A stretch of 10,944 bases of DNA from Eggerthellales bacterium UBA948 (GTDB taxonomy: Bacteria; Actinomycetota; Coriobacteriia; Coriobacteriales; UBA8131): assembly GCA_002293265.1 (NCBI GenBank), contig DBCW01000057.1, positions 1 through 10,944 on the forward strand. The letters are read 5' to 3'. Each line of letters begins with the position of its first letter. Position 1 is the first letter of the stretch. Of this stretch, positions 3,257 to 9,170 are shown piece by piece. Under the pieces are notes generated by a model. That model worked only from the letters and a program-made list of their open reading frames with translations. It made no database searches and was not told the origin of the DNA. Both the position numbers and the translations under genes were made by a program.

Positions 3257-3283
3257 GGAAGTGCCGATTTAATCATTACTTCC
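3257..3283 (+). repeat. 27-bp remnant of the palindromic element in the leader of the first GT2 gene
   Basis: Positions 3257-3277 repeat, base for base, the last 21 bases of the intact element at 4606-4626 read on the opposite strand (GGAAGTGCCGATTTAAT followed by CATT). They are followed at once by ACTTCC, the complement of the element's first six bases. The whole could be a deletion derivative keeping one end and the tip of the other. CTAA precedes it (3253-3256) and TAAA or an overlapping CTAA follows, in keeping with a YTAR target. Its two tips could form a six-base stem with a 15-base loop just before the Shine-Dalgarno sequence. Confidence 0.7.
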
Positions 3284-3298
3284 TAAAAGGAGAAGTTG

Positions 3299-4465
3299 AT
3301 GCCACAACATGATTTTCAACTTGAGTTGACGATATTAATGCCCTGCCTTGATGAGGCTGAGACACTTGCAATTTGCATAGATAAAGCAAAAGGATTTCTG
3401 GAAAAAAGCGGAATAAGTGGAGAGATTGTAATTGCCGATAATGGCAGCACAGATGGATCACAAGATATTGCCAGAGAGCATGGAGCAAGAGTAGTTGATG
3501 TGCCACAGCGTGGTTATGGTGCCGCTCTAATCGGAGGGTGCAACGCCGCAAAAGGTAAATACGTAATCATGGGCGATGCTGACGATAGTTATGACTTTAC
3601 CAACTTGTCAGCTTTTGTTGAGCGTTTGCGTGCAGGCGACGATCTGGTAATGGGTAATCGTTTTGCAGGAGGTATTGCCAAAGGGGCAATGCCCGCTTTA
3701 CACAAATACTTGGGTAATCCGGTTTTATCCGGACTTGGAAGAATGTTCTTCAAGTGCCCGATCAAAGACTTTCACTGTGGACTTAGAGGATACAATACAA
3801 GCCGCATGCGTGAGCTTGGGCTTCAGACATTAGGTATGGAGTATGCCAGCGAGATGGTTGTGCAGTCTATTATTAACAACTACAAAGTTTCTGAAGTTCC
3901 AACAACGCTATCGCCTGACGGACGGACGCGACCACCGCACTTGCGTAGTTGGCGCGATGGATGGCGTCACTTGAAGTTTCTCTTAATGCATAGTCCTAAT
4001 TGGTTGTTTTTGTATCCTGGGATTGTTTTGGTCATTATAGGTCTTGTTTTAGGCATAATTGTAGAAATATCACCACTAAACTTCTTTGGTGCCACACTTG
4101 ATATCAATACTCTTTTGTATTTTGCGGCGATGGTCATTGCAGGCTTTAACATAATATCTATCCATTGTTTTACAAAAGTCTATGCTGTAAAAGCAAAATT
4201 TATCAAAGTTGAGCAAGCACCTTTTAGGAATCTAAACGCAGATACGTGCGCATTGGCTGGTTTTATCATTGGTTTGATCGGTATTGTAGCTACAATATTT
4301 GCTTTTGTAATCTGGGGTGGCACTTCTTTTGGCGATTTAGAGCCTGAGTCATTTATGCGTATAACAATTCCTGCCACAACCCTAATTATTGTTGGAGTCC
4401 AACTTGTGTTCTCAGGATTCTTTCTGGACATTTTACGCATTAAAACAAAGGACAAAGAGCTCTAG
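3299..4465 (+). CDS. Membrane-anchored family 2 glycosyltransferase, dolichyl-phosphate-glucose-synthase type
   Basis: A 388-residue polyprenyl-phosphate glycosyltransferase expected to move a sugar from a nucleotide donor to undecaprenyl phosphate on the inner membrane face. The GT-A domain fills residues 8-230: TILMPCLDEAETL at 11-23, DNGSTDGS at 47-54, and the metal and nucleotide-sugar binding DADD at 93-96. GNRF (119-122), DFHCGLRGY (157-165) and the SPDGRTRPPHLRSWRDGWRH block (205-224) are typical of the dolichyl-phosphate-glucose-synthase-like group. Four helices follow at about 235-257, 272-292, 316-339 and 354-378. The ATG at 3299 is chosen over the adjacent in-frame TTG at 3296 because AAAAGGAG ends six bases before it. 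The gene is bracketed by a remnant and a full copy of the same palindromic element, and its TAG stop lies within that element's CTAG target duplication. Sugar identity is unknown. Confidence 0.9.
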   Translation: MPQHDFQLELTILMPCLDEAETLAICIDKAKGFLEKSGISGEIVIADNGSTDGSQDIAREHGARVVDVPQRGYGAALIGGCNAAKGKYVIMGDADDSYDFTNLSAFVERLRAGDDLVMGNRFAGGIAKGAMPALHKYLGNPVLSGLGRMFFKCPIKDFHCGLRGYNTSRMRELGLQTLGMEYASEMVVQSIINNYKVSEVPTTLSPDGRTRPPHLRSWRDGWRHLKFLLMHSPNWLFLYPGIVLVIIGLVLGIIVEISPLNFFGATLDINTLLYFAAMVIAGFNIISIHCFTKVYAVKAKFIKVEQAPFRNLNADTCALAGFIIGLIGIVATIFAFVIWGGTSFGDLEPESFMRITIPATTLIIVGVQLVFSGFFLDILRIKTKDKEL

Positions 4466-4626
4466 GGAAGTGCCGATTTAATGCTTGTGCGTCAGATTCT
4501 GCTCAGTTTGTTCCAAATCTGTTTGAGCAGGCAACGGCACTACCTAGCGTAATGTCGTTGTCTGCTCGGACATATCTGGGTCAAACTGTGCTGAAGATGG
4601 CGAGCAATGATTAAATCGGCACTTCC
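4466..4626. mobile_element. 161-bp MITE-like palindromic element with 17-bp perfect terminal inverted repeats
   Basis: The ends are GGAAGTGCCGATTTAAT (4466-4482) and its exact reverse complement (4610-4626), each flanked by CTAG (4462-4465 and 4627-4630). The interior is also palindromic. Arms 4466-4543 and 4549-4626 align without a gap around the loop CTAGC (4544-4548), and by hand count about 60 of 78 positions form Watson-Crick pairs, with several further G-U pairs. The best inner blocks are 4504-4510 with 4582-4588 and 4525-4536 with 4556-4567. There is no open reading frame of note, so it would be non-autonomous. From memory, IS5-group elements use a 4-bp YTAR target and have GGAAG-type tips, so an IS5-related transposase elsewhere in the genome is a plausible driver. 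The left CTAG contains the stop codon of the preceding gene. When transcribed it would fold into a long hairpin between two glycosyltransferase genes. Confidence 0.85.
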
Positions 4627-4649
4627 CTAGTTTATGTGCGCTGTATAAT
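4621..4649 (+). promoter_or_regulatory. Candidate promoter for the GtrB-GtrA pair, -10 box beside the mobile element
   Basis: TATAAT at 4644-4649 is a perfect -10 hexamer preceded directly by TG. With a 17-base spacer the -35 position falls at 4621-4626, the last six bases of the palindromic element (ACTTCC), a poor -35 match. A second weaker pair, TTGTCT (4653-4658) and TATCTT (4675-4680), lies just downstream with a 16-base spacer. Either would yield a short leader to the ATG at 4740. Confidence 0.4.
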
Positions 4650-4739
4650 AATTTGTCTTATGGCATAATTACTTTATCTTGATCTGCTGATTTTATATCA
4701 GTATTTTCAGGACGTAATTATTTGCGCAAGGGGATTTAT

Positions 4740-5708
4740 ATGAATTTTGGAACTAGGGTCGCGGTCATTATTCCGTGCTTTAACGAAGAGCTTACTATTG
4801 CAAAAGTTGTCGAAGATTTTGGACGCATCTTGCCTGATGCTGACATATACGTTTACAACAACAACTCCACAGACTCAACAGCTTCAATAGCTCGTGAACA
4901 CGGTGCAATCATTAGAAACGAACCCAGACAAGGTAAAGGCAATGCAGTGCGTCAAGCATTTCGCGATATAGACGCGGATTACTACGTTATGATTGATGGC
5001 GATGATACTTATCCAGCTGAAGCAGTGCATGAGATGCTGGAGCCTCTCATAAGAGGCGAAGCTGACATGGTCATTGGGGACAGGTTGTCCAACATGAGTT
5101 ATCACGCTGAAAACAAGCGTGCTTTTCATAGCTTTGGAAACAACCTTGTTCGCTCGCTAATCAGCATGTTTTACGGTGTTAAATACAACGACATAATGAC
5201 AGGTTACCGTGCTTTCAATCGTGTTTTTGTTAAGTCGTTCCCTATTTTGTCTAAAGGATTTGAGATAGAGACCGAATTATCCATACATTGTATTGATAAG
5301 AACTGGCGCATAGTCGAAATACCAATCGATTATCGTGATCGTCCTGAGGGAAGTGTATCCAAGCTCTCAACATTTAGCGATGGCTTTAAAGTATTGATGA
5401 CCATCATGACGCTCTTTAAGGACTATAAGCCGCTGGCACTCTTTTCAGTAGTTGGAGCACTGTTTTCGCTTATCGGATTGGTATTTGGCATTACTGTTGT
5501 GATCGATTTTGCACAAACCGGACTCGTGGAGCGTCTTCCGACTGCTATACTTGCTGTTGCACTTGTGTTTTGTGGGTTGCTTTCTCTGGCCTGTGGACTA
5601 ATCCTCGACACAACCGTAAAGGGTTACCGCAAACAATACGAGCTTATGCTGATGGACAAGCAGGAGTGGCAAAATATGAGTCAGTCTACACTTAATTCTG
5701 ACCAATAA
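4740..5708 (+). CDS. GtrB-like family 2 polyprenyl-phosphate glycosyltransferase
   Basis: A 322-residue membrane GT2 enzyme that should make an undecaprenyl-phosphate-linked sugar. The catalytic domain spans residues 6-230: VAVIIPCFNEELTI at 7-20, NNNSTDST at 40-47, DGDDTYP at 86-92 (metal and donor binding), and the TGYRAFNRVF block at 154-163. FEIETELSIH (174-183) and YRDRPEGSVSKLSTFSDG (198-215) are typical of the DPM1/GtrB-like group. Two C-terminal helices lie at about 232-254 and 267-290, as in GtrB/CsbB proteins. The ATG at 4740 has AAGGGGA just upstream; the in-frame TTG at 4722 is not supported. A gtrA-like gene follows after 17 bases, so the two form an operon. The first GT2 gene is only distantly similar and has four helices rather than two, so they probably act on different donors or acceptors. 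Confidence 0.92.
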   Translation: MNFGTRVAVIIPCFNEELTIAKVVEDFGRILPDADIYVYNNNSTDSTASIAREHGAIIRNEPRQGKGNAVRQAFRDIDADYYVMIDGDDTYPAEAVHEMLEPLIRGEADMVIGDRLSNMSYHAENKRAFHSFGNNLVRSLISMFYGVKYNDIMTGYRAFNRVFVKSFPILSKGFEIETELSIHCIDKNWRIVEIPIDYRDRPEGSVSKLSTFSDGFKVLMTIMTLFKDYKPLALFSVVGALFSLIGLVFGITVVIDFAQTGLVERLPTAILAVALVFCGLLSLACGLILDTTVKGYRKQYELMLMDKQEWQNMSQSTLNSDQ

Positions 5709-6263: not shown

Positions 6264-9170
6264 CTACTTGTACTGCGGAATTATGTAATAAAGGCTTGGA
6301 GAATAGCCGACACCGTTGTAAAACTCGCCCATAATCTTGGCGATCTTACGTGCCCAAAGATGGTCTGTAGCGTACTGATGCCATCCATAAGTGCTATTAT
6401 CGCTGCTTCGCTTATAATCCCATTTCATTGCATACAATGTGGGCTGTGAATAACTTGAGCTGTATATATAGTAGTTGGCTATCCACTTTGCAGCACCCAC
6501 AATTGCTTTCCTTGGTGAGTTCCATCCGTTTTGAATTGCCAAGCTCATACCACCGGAAAATGGGCTGCTGTCGTACGCTCCAATACCATAGAAGTTGTAG
6601 TATGTTCCCTTTGGATACTTGCGCCCATTAATAGGAGTCTTTCCATCGTAGTAATTGCCTTTTGCTAAGTTCGAGGTGCCCCAACCGCTTTCTAGTACCG
6701 CGTGTGCCAACAGATAGCTTTCGTTTAAGTTATAGGTATTAGCGGCGGTTATAAAGGCTGCACCCATTCCTCTGAGTTTCCCGCTTTTGCCCAGTGTATT
6801 ATTTGAAATGATCGAGTTTAGCTGTGCTGCGGTTAAACCTGATGTGCTTCGAAGATCTGCAAATTGATAAACTCCACTGGTATAAGTAACACCATGTTCA
6901 GCATAATAGTAGTTTGACATCGACACAGACGGATCAATAACGTCTCGCAAGTGTTGTGTAGAAACACTGTCAATGTAAGGATTTCCTTCTTTTTGCCACG
7001 ACACCATATTATCAACGGTCATTGAGACGTTTTCGTAAGCAATGTTGCCAAAAGGCAGCAGTAAGAAGTTTTGTGCCAGTGAATTGTTCTCTCTATAGAC
7101 CTGTATGATCGTTTCGTTTTGAAAAGCTGCATTTGAAATGTCTAAGCATGACTTACCGTCACCGCAAGCGCTGTACATTTTAAACTGACCTTTTCCTATA
7201 TAAACTACTCGCCAAAGCTGAGATGTCTTGTTGTCAGCGCCCACACTAAATTGCTGCACACGCCCTTGCCCGCTAGCTGAGTTTATATATCCATCAACAA
7301 CTTCAAGCGCTTTTGCCGAGTTAAGATTTGTTATGCGGTAATAGCCACCGTTAACCTTAGTAAATCTGAAGGTCTGAGCCATAGAATTGTTCTTGTCATA
7401 CAACTGAAGACCTGCACGATCTTCAGTTGAGGCATATCCAATATCCAATACCATGTTAGGCGCAGCCGCAGCGGGCACAACATACAGTCCTTCGGAGATA
7501 ACATCTGTTTTTACCAGCGTCCATCTTTGAGAGCTGGCATTATTCTTTTTGTCAGCTTCTACGTTTGCACCGGAGTGCTTTTCGTCACCAACAACATCTA
7601 AAACTAGCCCTGTGGCCTTGTTCTTAAAGAAAAATCGTCCATTTCCGGCAATAATCGGTCTCCACAATTGATATCCGGAATTTGTAAAGTTGACAAGAAT
7701 TACATTATTGTTACTTTCGTTTTGAGCAACTACCAGACCTGAGTTTAGGCACTCAATTGAGTAAAGCCCATTTTTTGTATGAGTAACTTTAAATTTTTGA
7801 GCCGGACTGGTGTTTGGTTTATATATTTGAATCTGCGTACCCTCATCTGTAGAATTATTTGAAACGTCAAGATTATTTCCGGACATTGTGTTTAAGTGAA
7901 ATATTCCTTCGTTGATCAAAAGGCTCGAGGAGAATATCCATATTTGTGAGTTTGAATTATTCCTCTTAGCCACCTCAATGTTTGCGCCATTAGTATCACT
8001 CGCGTTGTCTACATTAAGCATCAAACCGCTTACCGCAGATATAATCCTATACTTTCCTGCTCCCGCGCTTACAATCGTCCACTTTTGAGCATTAGAGTTA
8101 TTTCTTGCATAGCTTTGAACATTCGCGCCATTTTTATTGCTGCCACCCGCAACTTCCATAGGTTTACCGGAATGGACATTGGTAAACCTGTAATAACCGG
8201 TTTGAGTATCATATGTGACAGTAAAGCGCTGATTTAGACCATTGTTTGCTTCCCATAAATCGTAATTGGCACCATTTTTTGGAGAATACCCAGCCAGATC
8301 AAGAACTTTGTCACCCAGAGCAGATCCAACAACATATGTACCGTTCTTTATAATCCTTTTTATGTTGCTAAATACAAAGCGCTGACCTTTAGAGTCATTG
8401 CTCTTACAGACCTGAAGTATCGCGCCTTTTTTTGCTGAACCATTAGGAACATCAAGGCAGTACTCTCTATTTAAAGCTGAGCTAATGCGATATTGCTTGC
8501 TGTCATCCGTACTCTTTTCCACATACCACTTCTGTGACTTCGCTGATCTTCTGCTGTTTTGCCAAACAGCGGCTCCGTCCTTTACCACACCGCCACCAAC
8601 TTCTAAGAACTTACCTGAATTAACATTTAGTATCTTGTAAGTACCGTCTGAGTTTTTCATAAACCTAAAACGCTGTGCCGGATTGTGGTTAGCAGTGGAC
8701 AGCTGTAGTTTTGCTTTGTTTTTTTGAGAATCTCCAACTATATCTAACAGCATTTTTTTGTTCAAAGCAGAAGATATTGTAAATATTCCGGGGAGATCAT
8801 TAACGGCTCTCAAAGCGATCTCTGAGTTTATGCTTAGTTTGCTCTCTGCGCTCTTTTCGCTCTTGGATTCTACGTTTTTAACATCGCTTTTATTCTCTGC
8901 TGATTTCTCGGTTGATTCTTTGTCATCGGTCTTTGAGCCATCTGTAGAATCACTTTTCTTTTCTACTGAGCTTTTGTCCGAAGCCCGATCTTTGTTTGTC
9001 TTTGTTGATTGGCTTTCCTGAGATTCCTGAGACGCTTTCTCAGCGGCAAAGGCTTGAATCCCGGATAGAGGCATTAGTCCGGTTGCCAGCAGTATTGCAA
9101 GTGCAAAAGATATAAGTGCCTTGCCAAAACGTCGACCAAGCTTCCCTGAATGGAACGTATTGGTTTTCAT
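6264..9170 (-). CDS. Secreted ricin-repeat cell-wall glucosaminidase (GH73-type)
   Basis: A 968-residue secreted protein. Residues 1-42 form a signal peptide (basic LGRRFGK, long hydrophobic core, cleavage likely after AFA). Residues 43-120 are a low-complexity linker of Ser, Lys, Glu and Asp. Residues 128-706 hold twelve ricin-type QxW/QxF repeats, listed separately. The C-terminus, about 760-950, is a glucosaminidase domain that should cut GlcNAc-containing bonds of peptidoglycan: AHAVLESGWGTSNLAKG at 822-838 carries the presumed catalytic Glu827, followed by NFYGIGAYDSSP (859-870) and KAIVGAAKWIANYYI (888-902). There is no LPXTG signal or C-terminal membrane helix, so attachment would depend on the lectin repeats. 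The ATG at 9170 has AGAGGAG unusually close (three to five bases). The 89-base gap to the exporter ATPase shows no convincing promoter or terminator, so it may lie in the exporter operon. Confidence 0.92.
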   Translation of the reverse strand: MKTNTFHSGKLGRRFGKALISFALAILLATGLMPLSGIQAFAAEKASQESQESQSTKTNKDRASDKSSVEKKSDSTDGSKTDDKESTEKSAENKSDVKNVESKSEKSAESKLSINSEIALRAVNDLPGIFTISSALNKKMLLDIVGDSQKNKAKLQLSTANHNPAQRFRFMKNSDGTYKILNVNSGKFLEVGGGVVKDGAAVWQNSRRSAKSQKWYVEKSTDDSKQYRISSALNREYCLDVPNGSAKKGAILQVCKSNDSKGQRFVFSNIKRIIKNGTYVVGSALGDKVLDLAGYSPKNGANYDLWEANNGLNQRFTVTYDTQTGYYRFTNVHSGKPMEVAGGSNKNGANVQSYARNNSNAQKWTIVSAGAGKYRIISAVSGLMLNVDNASDTNGANIEVAKRNNSNSQIWIFSSSLLINEGIFHLNTMSGNNLDVSNNSTDEGTQIQIYKPNTSPAQKFKVTHTKNGLYSIECLNSGLVVAQNESNNNVILVNFTNSGYQLWRPIIAGNGRFFFKNKATGLVLDVVGDEKHSGANVEADKKNNASSQRWTLVKTDVISEGLYVVPAAAAPNMVLDIGYASTEDRAGLQLYDKNNSMAQTFRFTKVNGGYYRITNLNSAKALEVVDGYINSASGQGRVQQFSVGADNKTSQLWRVVYIGKGQFKMYSACGDGKSCLDISNAAFQNETIIQVYRENNSLAQNFLLLPFGNIAYENVSMTVDNMVSWQKEGNPYIDSVSTQHLRDVIDPSVSMSNYYYAEHGVTYTSGVYQFADLRSTSGLTAAQLNSIISNNTLGKSGKLRGMGAAFITAANTYNLNESYLLAHAVLESGWGTSNLAKGNYYDGKTPINGRKYPKGTYYNFYGIGAYDSSPFSGGMSLAIQNGWNSPRKAIVGAAKWIANYYIYSSSYSQPTLYAMKWDYKRSSDNSTYGWHQYATDHLWARKIAKIMGEFYNGVGYSPSLYYIIPQYK
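7053..8789 (-). repeat. Twelve ricin-type repeats, probably four beta-trefoils
   Basis: Within the glucosaminidase, residues 128-706 contain twelve QxW/QxF-type motifs: AQRF, SQKW, GQRF, NQRF, AQKW, SQIW, AQKF, YQLW, SQRW, AQTF, SQLW and AQNF, spaced about 43-52 residues apart. A G-x-[YF]-x-[ILV] start recurs at about 128, 277, 422 and 561, before repeats 1, 4, 7 and 10, which divides the array into four groups of three. Three repeats make one beta-trefoil, so this predicts four tandem lectin domains. Each group opens with a QxF repeat and has a QxW repeat second, so the threefold unit was probably duplicated as a block. Sugar specificity cannot be read from the sequence. Confidence 0.85.

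Follow-up and report, generated by a model that had tools for sequence, protein, structure and literature searches.

Bacterial MITEs are usually taken to be a pair of transposase tips around filler, and the folding of their transcripts is read as a by-product of the palindrome. A 161-bp palindrome between two glycosyltransferase genes of Eggerthellales bacterium UBA948 raises the question of whether that description suffices, or whether what is conserved in such an element is the RNA it encodes. The window analysed here is a stretch of 10,944 nucleotides (contig DBCW01000057.1), and all coordinates without another label refer to it. The reading that best fits the results below is a family of IS5-mobilised MITEs of about 160 bp, whose interior is probably a conserved structured RNA transcribed from the plus strand of the window.

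An intact palindrome at a stop codon

The element spans 4466-4626 (161 bp), and its plus strand is the sense strand of the hairpin. The features of the region, with the conservation of loop positions counted in an alignment of 43 copies, are as follows.

3257..3283, putative collapsed 27-bp copy of the element, GGAAGTGCCGATTTAATCATTACTTCC, flanked by CTAA and TAAA, just upstream of the first GT2 ORF
3296..4465, plus strand, GT2 glycosyltransferase ORF, 389 aa, between the collapsed and intact copies, ending GAG CTC TAG
4462..4465, left target duplication CTAG, the TAG within it being the stop of the GT2 ORF
4466..4482, plus strand, left tip, GGAAGTGCCGATTTAAT, 14 of 17 positions as in the IS5-family element of relative G002
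4483..4484, plus strand, internal loop, unpaired G-C opposite T-G at 4608-4609, kept in 43, 42, 43 and 43 of 43 copies
4495..4496, plus strand, tandem G.A internal loop, G-A opposite G-A at 4596-4597, kept in 41, 43, 43 and 42 of 43 copies
4540, plus strand, C.A mismatch below the apical loop, C4540 opposite A4552, kept in 43 of 43 and 43 of 43 copies
4544..4548, plus strand, apical loop CTAGC
4610..4626, minus strand, right tip, equal to the left tip in this copy alone among 14 aligned host copies
4627..4630, right target duplication CTAG
4722..5708, plus strand, second GT2 glycosyltransferase ORF, downstream of the element

A sequence-only reading of this locus had described a 161-bp element with perfect 17-bp tips, CTAG on both sides and a gapless palindrome around 4544-4548. 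All of this is confirmed: GGAAGTGCCGATTTAAT occurs at both ends (17/17), and the 82-nt arms, 4462-4543 and 4549-4630, match at 64 of 82 positions without a gap. The same reading correctly placed the stop codon of the 389-aa ORF inside the left CTAG; because this tetramer is the one duplicated, the stop is unchanged by the insertion. Since targets of the YTAR type contain TAA or TAG, an insertion at a stop codon is unsurprising. The element contains no ORF that reaches 80 aa.

The predicted fold of the window copy is far beyond chance, with an RNA z-score of -14.2 and none of 200 shuffles equally stable. Together with its flanking CTAGs the element folds at -104.9 kcal/mol on the sense strand versus -86.9 kcal/mol on the other, and a covariance model of the family scores it at 150.8 bits on the plus strand and 93.9 on the minus strand. 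The very long hairpin that had been predicted for the transcript turns out to be the important part of the sequence-only reading.

The 389-aa GT2 gene has a patchy distribution, occurring in 4 of 33 genomes of the family, its own included, and the matches to its protein are taxonomically mixed (Synergistales, Lachnospiraceae, Eggerthellaceae, Coriobacteriales, Bacteroidetes). It is flanked by the collapsed and the intact copy, whose identical 17-bp outer tips face outward (3257-4626), and this 1370-bp stretch could in principle be movable as one unit. With 62 tips in a genome of 2.9 Mb, finding two copies so near each other would be no surprise even by chance. Elsewhere in the window, 6264-9170 on the minus strand is predicted to encode a large protein carrying several lectin repeats of the ricin type, with a glucosaminidase domain at its C terminus.

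Copies in the host and its relatives

The host assembly (2.89 Mb in 180 contigs, 83% complete) holds 15 near-full-length copies of the element, the window copy included, each spanning 95% or more of its length with 80-100% identity. One further copy is nearly complete at 69% identity, and many fragments are present. The 17-bp tip, with up to two mismatches allowed, occurs 62 times in this genome, versus none for a reversed control pattern. Several of the single tips appear to be collapsed remnants 23-27 bp long, 3257-3283 among them, and their sequences suggest that they arose by deletion between short repeats such as GCTT.

BLAST finds the element in 11 of 80 relatives, the host included. The covariance model has matches in 13 of the 33 genomes of the family (again with the host). 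It has no match in the order's other 264 genomes, or in 395 further genomes sampled across the phylum, a set that shares some members with the order set. These genome searches used strict filters, which weak relatives of the element may escape, and scored the best 7-9 candidates per genome, so that the numbers of copies are minimum values. Searches of plasmid and phage collections found no copy, and neither did a BLAST search of 71 GT2 loci, 9 of which were also searched with the covariance model; none of 18 viral contigs matched by a 20-nt degenerate pattern was matched by the model.

Copies occupy unrelated loci in the host and in relatives, and 82 of the 85 copies collected from 13 genomes are 159-163 nt long. 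The sequence-only reading had proposed a non-autonomous mobile family, and had set against it a single copy or a hairpin kept at one locus in distant species. The element is multi-copy, non-coding, flanked by CTAG or YTAR and dispersed through 13 of 33 family genomes, as a mobile family would be.

A few copies are rearranged. In L149 (G019) and L173 (G005), which belong to two genera, the left part is swapped for a nearly identical GCTTCGCTCCTTC...GCGGGGGCCCC. The right end of the copy at L164 (G007) is fused to a different palindrome, AAAACAGTCCAGTGGACTGTTTTC, and L246:1001-1171 (G009) carries in its 5' arm an insertion of 11-12 nt that looks like a tandem duplication.

Target sites, tips and an IS5-family partner

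The flanks of the 43 aligned copies follow a YTAR pattern. The 4-bp flanks on the two sides are identical in 11 of 43 copies versus 4.4 expected, a number reached by 4 of 2000 shuffles, and agreement is highest at exactly four bases; in 32 of 43 copies the two flanks differ. Because the YTAR motif comes close to being a palindrome, stronger evidence comes from direct duplications of tetramers that are not palindromic, and CTTG, CTAA and CAAG are all seen. In a subfamily with GGCACC tips (G009 copies L242, L243 and L245) the duplications CATAAG and CAAAAG look 6 bp long rather than 4, and perhaps this subfamily uses a different helper. Empty sites, which had been expected in related strains, were not found: 71 joined-flank queries against the collected loci returned self matches or palindrome artefacts alone, and the locus itself was not found in relatives, a search of the 32 other family genomes having given no match to the GT2-GT2 junction of the window.

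Tips vary by subfamily (GGAAGTGCC..., GGCACTTCTAGAAACC..., GGAACCACTGATTAAC..., GTACACTGCGTCAGC...), and the interior can be aligned throughout. The earlier picture of perfect tips around a diverged interior describes the window copy alone; for the remaining 13 host copies in the alignment, tip agreement is 11-15 of 17 positions. Its proposed explanation, selection or recent mobilisation through the tips, is not supported by the family as a whole, where it is the tips that vary and the interior that stays conserved.

An IS5-group transposase with matching tips, also anticipated from the sequence, exists in two relatives, G002 and G007, where IS5-family insertion sequences carry CTAG duplications and tips resembling those of the element; the search of the host found none. 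The G002 element is 1390 bp long, with tips GGAACCACCGATTTAAT that agree at 16 of 17 positions between its own ends, and is flanked by CTAG on both sides. It encodes a transposase of 329 aa with DUF772 and DDE_Tnp_1 domains, assigned to the NCBIfam IS5 family (NF033581) with an E-value of 2e-78. Three more G002 contigs end after the same 115 bp of this element. G007 has a 1109-bp relative of it, right tip GGAAGCACCGATTAATT, also between two CTAGs, in which the transposase ORF lacks the N-terminal part (it matches residues 66-327 of 329). The commoner right tip of the palindromic element, GGAAGCACCGATTTAAT, matches the G002 tip at 16 of 17 positions; depending on the host tip used, the agreement is 14-16 of 17 with the G002 element and 13-15 of 17 with the G007 right tip.

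A transposase of the G002 kind is present in 2 of 33 family genomes. The 83% complete host assembly has no match to PF13586 or PF05598 (DDE_Tnp_1_2, DUF772) and no relative of the G002 transposase, which may reflect loss or an assembly gap. One weak host match to PF01609 (DDE_Tnp_1), at L271 (G000:C148), belongs to the IS1634 family and has no element tips nearby. Outside the tips, the palindromic element and the G002 insertion sequence share chance-like matches of 9-11 nt at most, which gives no evident sign that the element arose from that insertion sequence by internal deletion. We regard the element as a MITE with near certainty, and the resemblance of tips and target sites suggests movement in trans by IS5-family transposases.

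Covariation of the arms

Two alignments were used to ask how the arms change with respect to each other. The first holds 43 copies drawn from 52, with one copy left out for an N (L011) and eight as truncated or chimeric (L149, L160, L164, L172, L173, L174, L178 and L180). The second, more divergent, holds 41 of the 85 copies, picked by hand for diversity. The set of 85 combines 43 copies oriented by BLAST with 42 best-strand rows from 77 covariance-model matches, in which the other rows represent these loci on the opposite strand.

In the 43 copies, 40 of 62 pairs are doubly changed versus 24.4 after shuffling (0 of 500 shuffles reached this number) and 10-16 in slid registers, although the structures were derived from the same alignments, which gives them an advantage over the slid versions. 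With the tips excluded, the count is 30 of 48 pairs versus 17.3 (0 of 500). For the 41 divergent copies, 45 of 47 pairs are doubly changed versus 34.1 (0 of 500), and 94.0% of cells are paired versus 72.5% after shuffling.

The positions that do not pair are conserved as well. Ten unpaired loop positions (G4483, C4484, G4495, A4496, C4540, A4552, G4596, A4597, T4608 and G4609) are kept in 41-43 of 43 copies. The main interior mismatches of the window copy are present also in copies from other genera, which shows them to be inherited rather than the result of decay after insertion.

Asymmetry between the strands

G.U pairs and A.C mismatches were counted over the complete set of 78 register pairs, including those that are mismatched, with changes placed on a FastTree tree by Fitch states. 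The sense strand has 389 G.U cells versus 82 A.C cells, of which 43 come from a single invariant C.A position; G.U makes up about 14% of paired cells (380/2666). On internal branches, changes from Watson-Crick pairs to G.U outnumber those to A.C by 32 to 4 (binomial p = 2e-6). Terminal branches also favour G.U, by 80 to 33, and the contrast between internal and terminal branches is modest (Fisher p = 0.03, or 0.05 for the interior).

The youngest changes behave differently from the older ones. Letters unique in the alignment give 6 G.U and 6 A.C, and pair types confined to a single copy within a genome give 23 G.U and 22 A.C, the latter count covering the 38 copies of G000, G019 and G005 plus G030, with the 5 of G003 and G007 left out. 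The even ratio of the youngest changes (23:22) argues against a mutational bias toward G.U and for filtering of the older ones.

Across the larger set the sense strand is the more stable in 85 of 85 copies, by 4.2-43.3 kcal/mol (median 24.8), a count that is partly circular because 42 of the 85 were oriented by the RNA model itself. Relative to co-directional neighbouring genes, as found by a crude ORF caller, the orientation of 83 copies (all except L248 and L260) shows no bias, with 15 in the same and 13 in the opposite direction, and this offers no help for any cis-acting role.

Palindromes with the same tips and a different interior serve as a control. The collected loci contain 61 distinct two-tipped elements, of which 54 have the core and 7 lack it, a proportion biased by the fetching of loci for core or tips. 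Two of the 7, one collapsed and one masked by Ns, were not used. The remaining five are palindromes with unrelated interiors: three of a 119-bp family in G009 (L222, L246 and L247, with CTAG or CCAG on both sides), one in G007 (L230) and one in G030 (L285). Their strand differences are 11.0, 0.9, 0.8, 0.9 and 11.4 kcal/mol, with inconsistent sign in the 119-bp family; two of the five, at about 11 kcal/mol, lie inside the 4.2-43.3 range of the core family. This argues that the asymmetry belongs to the core and not to palindromic MITEs with these tips generally, although five controls are few. Coreless palindromes with the same tips have moved too, so the core is not required for mobility as such and the tips by themselves are enough.

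We consider it likely that a structure formed by one strand is under selection, and it is probable, at a somewhat lower level of confidence, that the selected strand acts as RNA rather than as single-stranded DNA.

Alternative explanations

An ordinary IS5-type MITE could keep its arms complementary through copying of one arm from the other, by template switching or gene conversion, with an RNA that has no role. The element is plainly a MITE, other palindromic MITEs share its tips, and template switching is reported to create and maintain hairpins (PMC8794818). Copying would account for the compensatory changes; it acts on both strands and yields Watson-Crick pairs, and so leaves unexplained both the preference for G.U over A.C (32:4) and the persistence of mismatched loops in 41-43 of 43 copies. 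Double changes on internal branches are reachable through G.U in 18 of 24 cases, which also speaks against copying, although transitions are commoner anyway. We judge this explanation unlikely. The selected object might instead be DNA that folds as a single strand, in the course of replication or transposition for instance. Strand-specific DNA hairpins serve other mobile elements, namely IS200/IS605 and integron attC sites, G.T is better tolerated than A.C in DNA too, and the copies have no bias to the transcribed strand of their neighbours. The share of G.U cells, about 14%, is within the range of structural RNA, and a DDE transposase that duplicates its target has no need of a folded single strand; on balance a DNA hairpin seems improbable as the object of selection.

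Selection for an RNA could also act through the spread of the element itself, if the hairpin RNA helped propagation in the manner of a SINE and the transposase tips served for insertion. The propagating lineage shows a constraint that the youngest changes lack, core and length persist while the tips change, and the core is found in 54 of the 61 two-tipped elements of the biased sample, all as such dependence would have it. Palindromes without the core bear the same tips and duplications nonetheless, and we hold RNA-dependent propagation to be highly improbable. Least credible of all, to the point of being practically dismissed, is the idea of a terminator or other local regulatory structure that serves the glycosyltransferase genes. 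The element does lie between two GT2 genes and in the sense orientation; its copies sit at unrelated loci in the host and relatives, its GT2-GT2 junction was found in none of the 32 other family genomes, and its right flank has no T run as a terminator would. The dispersal of the copies already refutes the local regulatory reading.

Relation to known elements

Like IS5-family MITEs, the element is short and non-coding, has IS5-like inverted tips and a 4-bp duplication of the YTAR type, and is multi-copy with many copies intergenic. It differs from them in that interior and length are conserved across genera while the tips change, and in that the interior bears the signature of selected pairing on one strand. 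No Rfam 15 family exceeds its gathering score, the best match reaching 38.7 bits against 77.5, and weak matches to eukaryotic microRNA hairpins are of the chance type.

Transcripts of bacterial MITEs that form stem loops are described in the earlier literature. The enterobacterial ERIC or RU-1 sequences (127 bp) are, according to published descriptions, likewise imperfect, dispersed palindromes with a long stem-loop transcript, and they differ in length and hosts; in Yersinia, ERIC is described as having an orientation-dependent effect on mRNA stability (PMC2229807, PMC10969869). The same sources report for the Correia or NEMIS elements of Neisseria, also MITEs, that RNase III cleaves their folded transcripts at the inverted repeats (PMC2229807, PMC10969869); the likeness is one of description, and RNase III cleavage of the present element would follow by analogy. 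Dispersed stem loops in Borrelia plasmid repeats have compensatory pair changes that were taken as conservation at the RNA level (Delihas 2009, PMC2674063); in the text consulted they are 34-122 nt long, with no demonstration of mobilisation by a transposase and no strand test. In the literature searched, which took in few subscription papers and some sources only in part, we found no description of this element, nor of selection in a MITE recognised by strand asymmetry.

A proposed role and its implications

On the preferred reading, a selected RNA hairpin carried by a MITE, read-through transcription from neighbouring genes would yield an unbranched hairpin of about 70 pairs. A protein would then read it as double-stranded RNA, the most likely candidates being a nuclease of the RNase III type or another RNA-binding protein at the invariant loops. 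Such recognition would keep the propagating lineage in shape, and single inserted copies would decay. At the window locus, insertion at CTAG spared the GT2 stop and placed the hairpin, in the sense orientation, between two co-directional GT2 genes. A role involving a nuclease or mRNA processing is offered tentatively; we prefer it to other roles by analogy with Correia/NEMIS and ERIC. A bolder and rather unlikely version would make the element a SINE-like parasite whose heritable identity is its structured RNA, selected in the propagating lineage, with tips changing and IS5-type helpers being swapped while the core and the 160-nt length stay fixed.

Strand asymmetry, loops that hardly vary and the difference between older changes and the youngest ones together separate a selected RNA from a passive palindrome, and in this family they favour the RNA. 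If this is true, whether MITEs persist through what their RNA does becomes a testable matter, and a compact hairpin is available for finding the protein that reads it.
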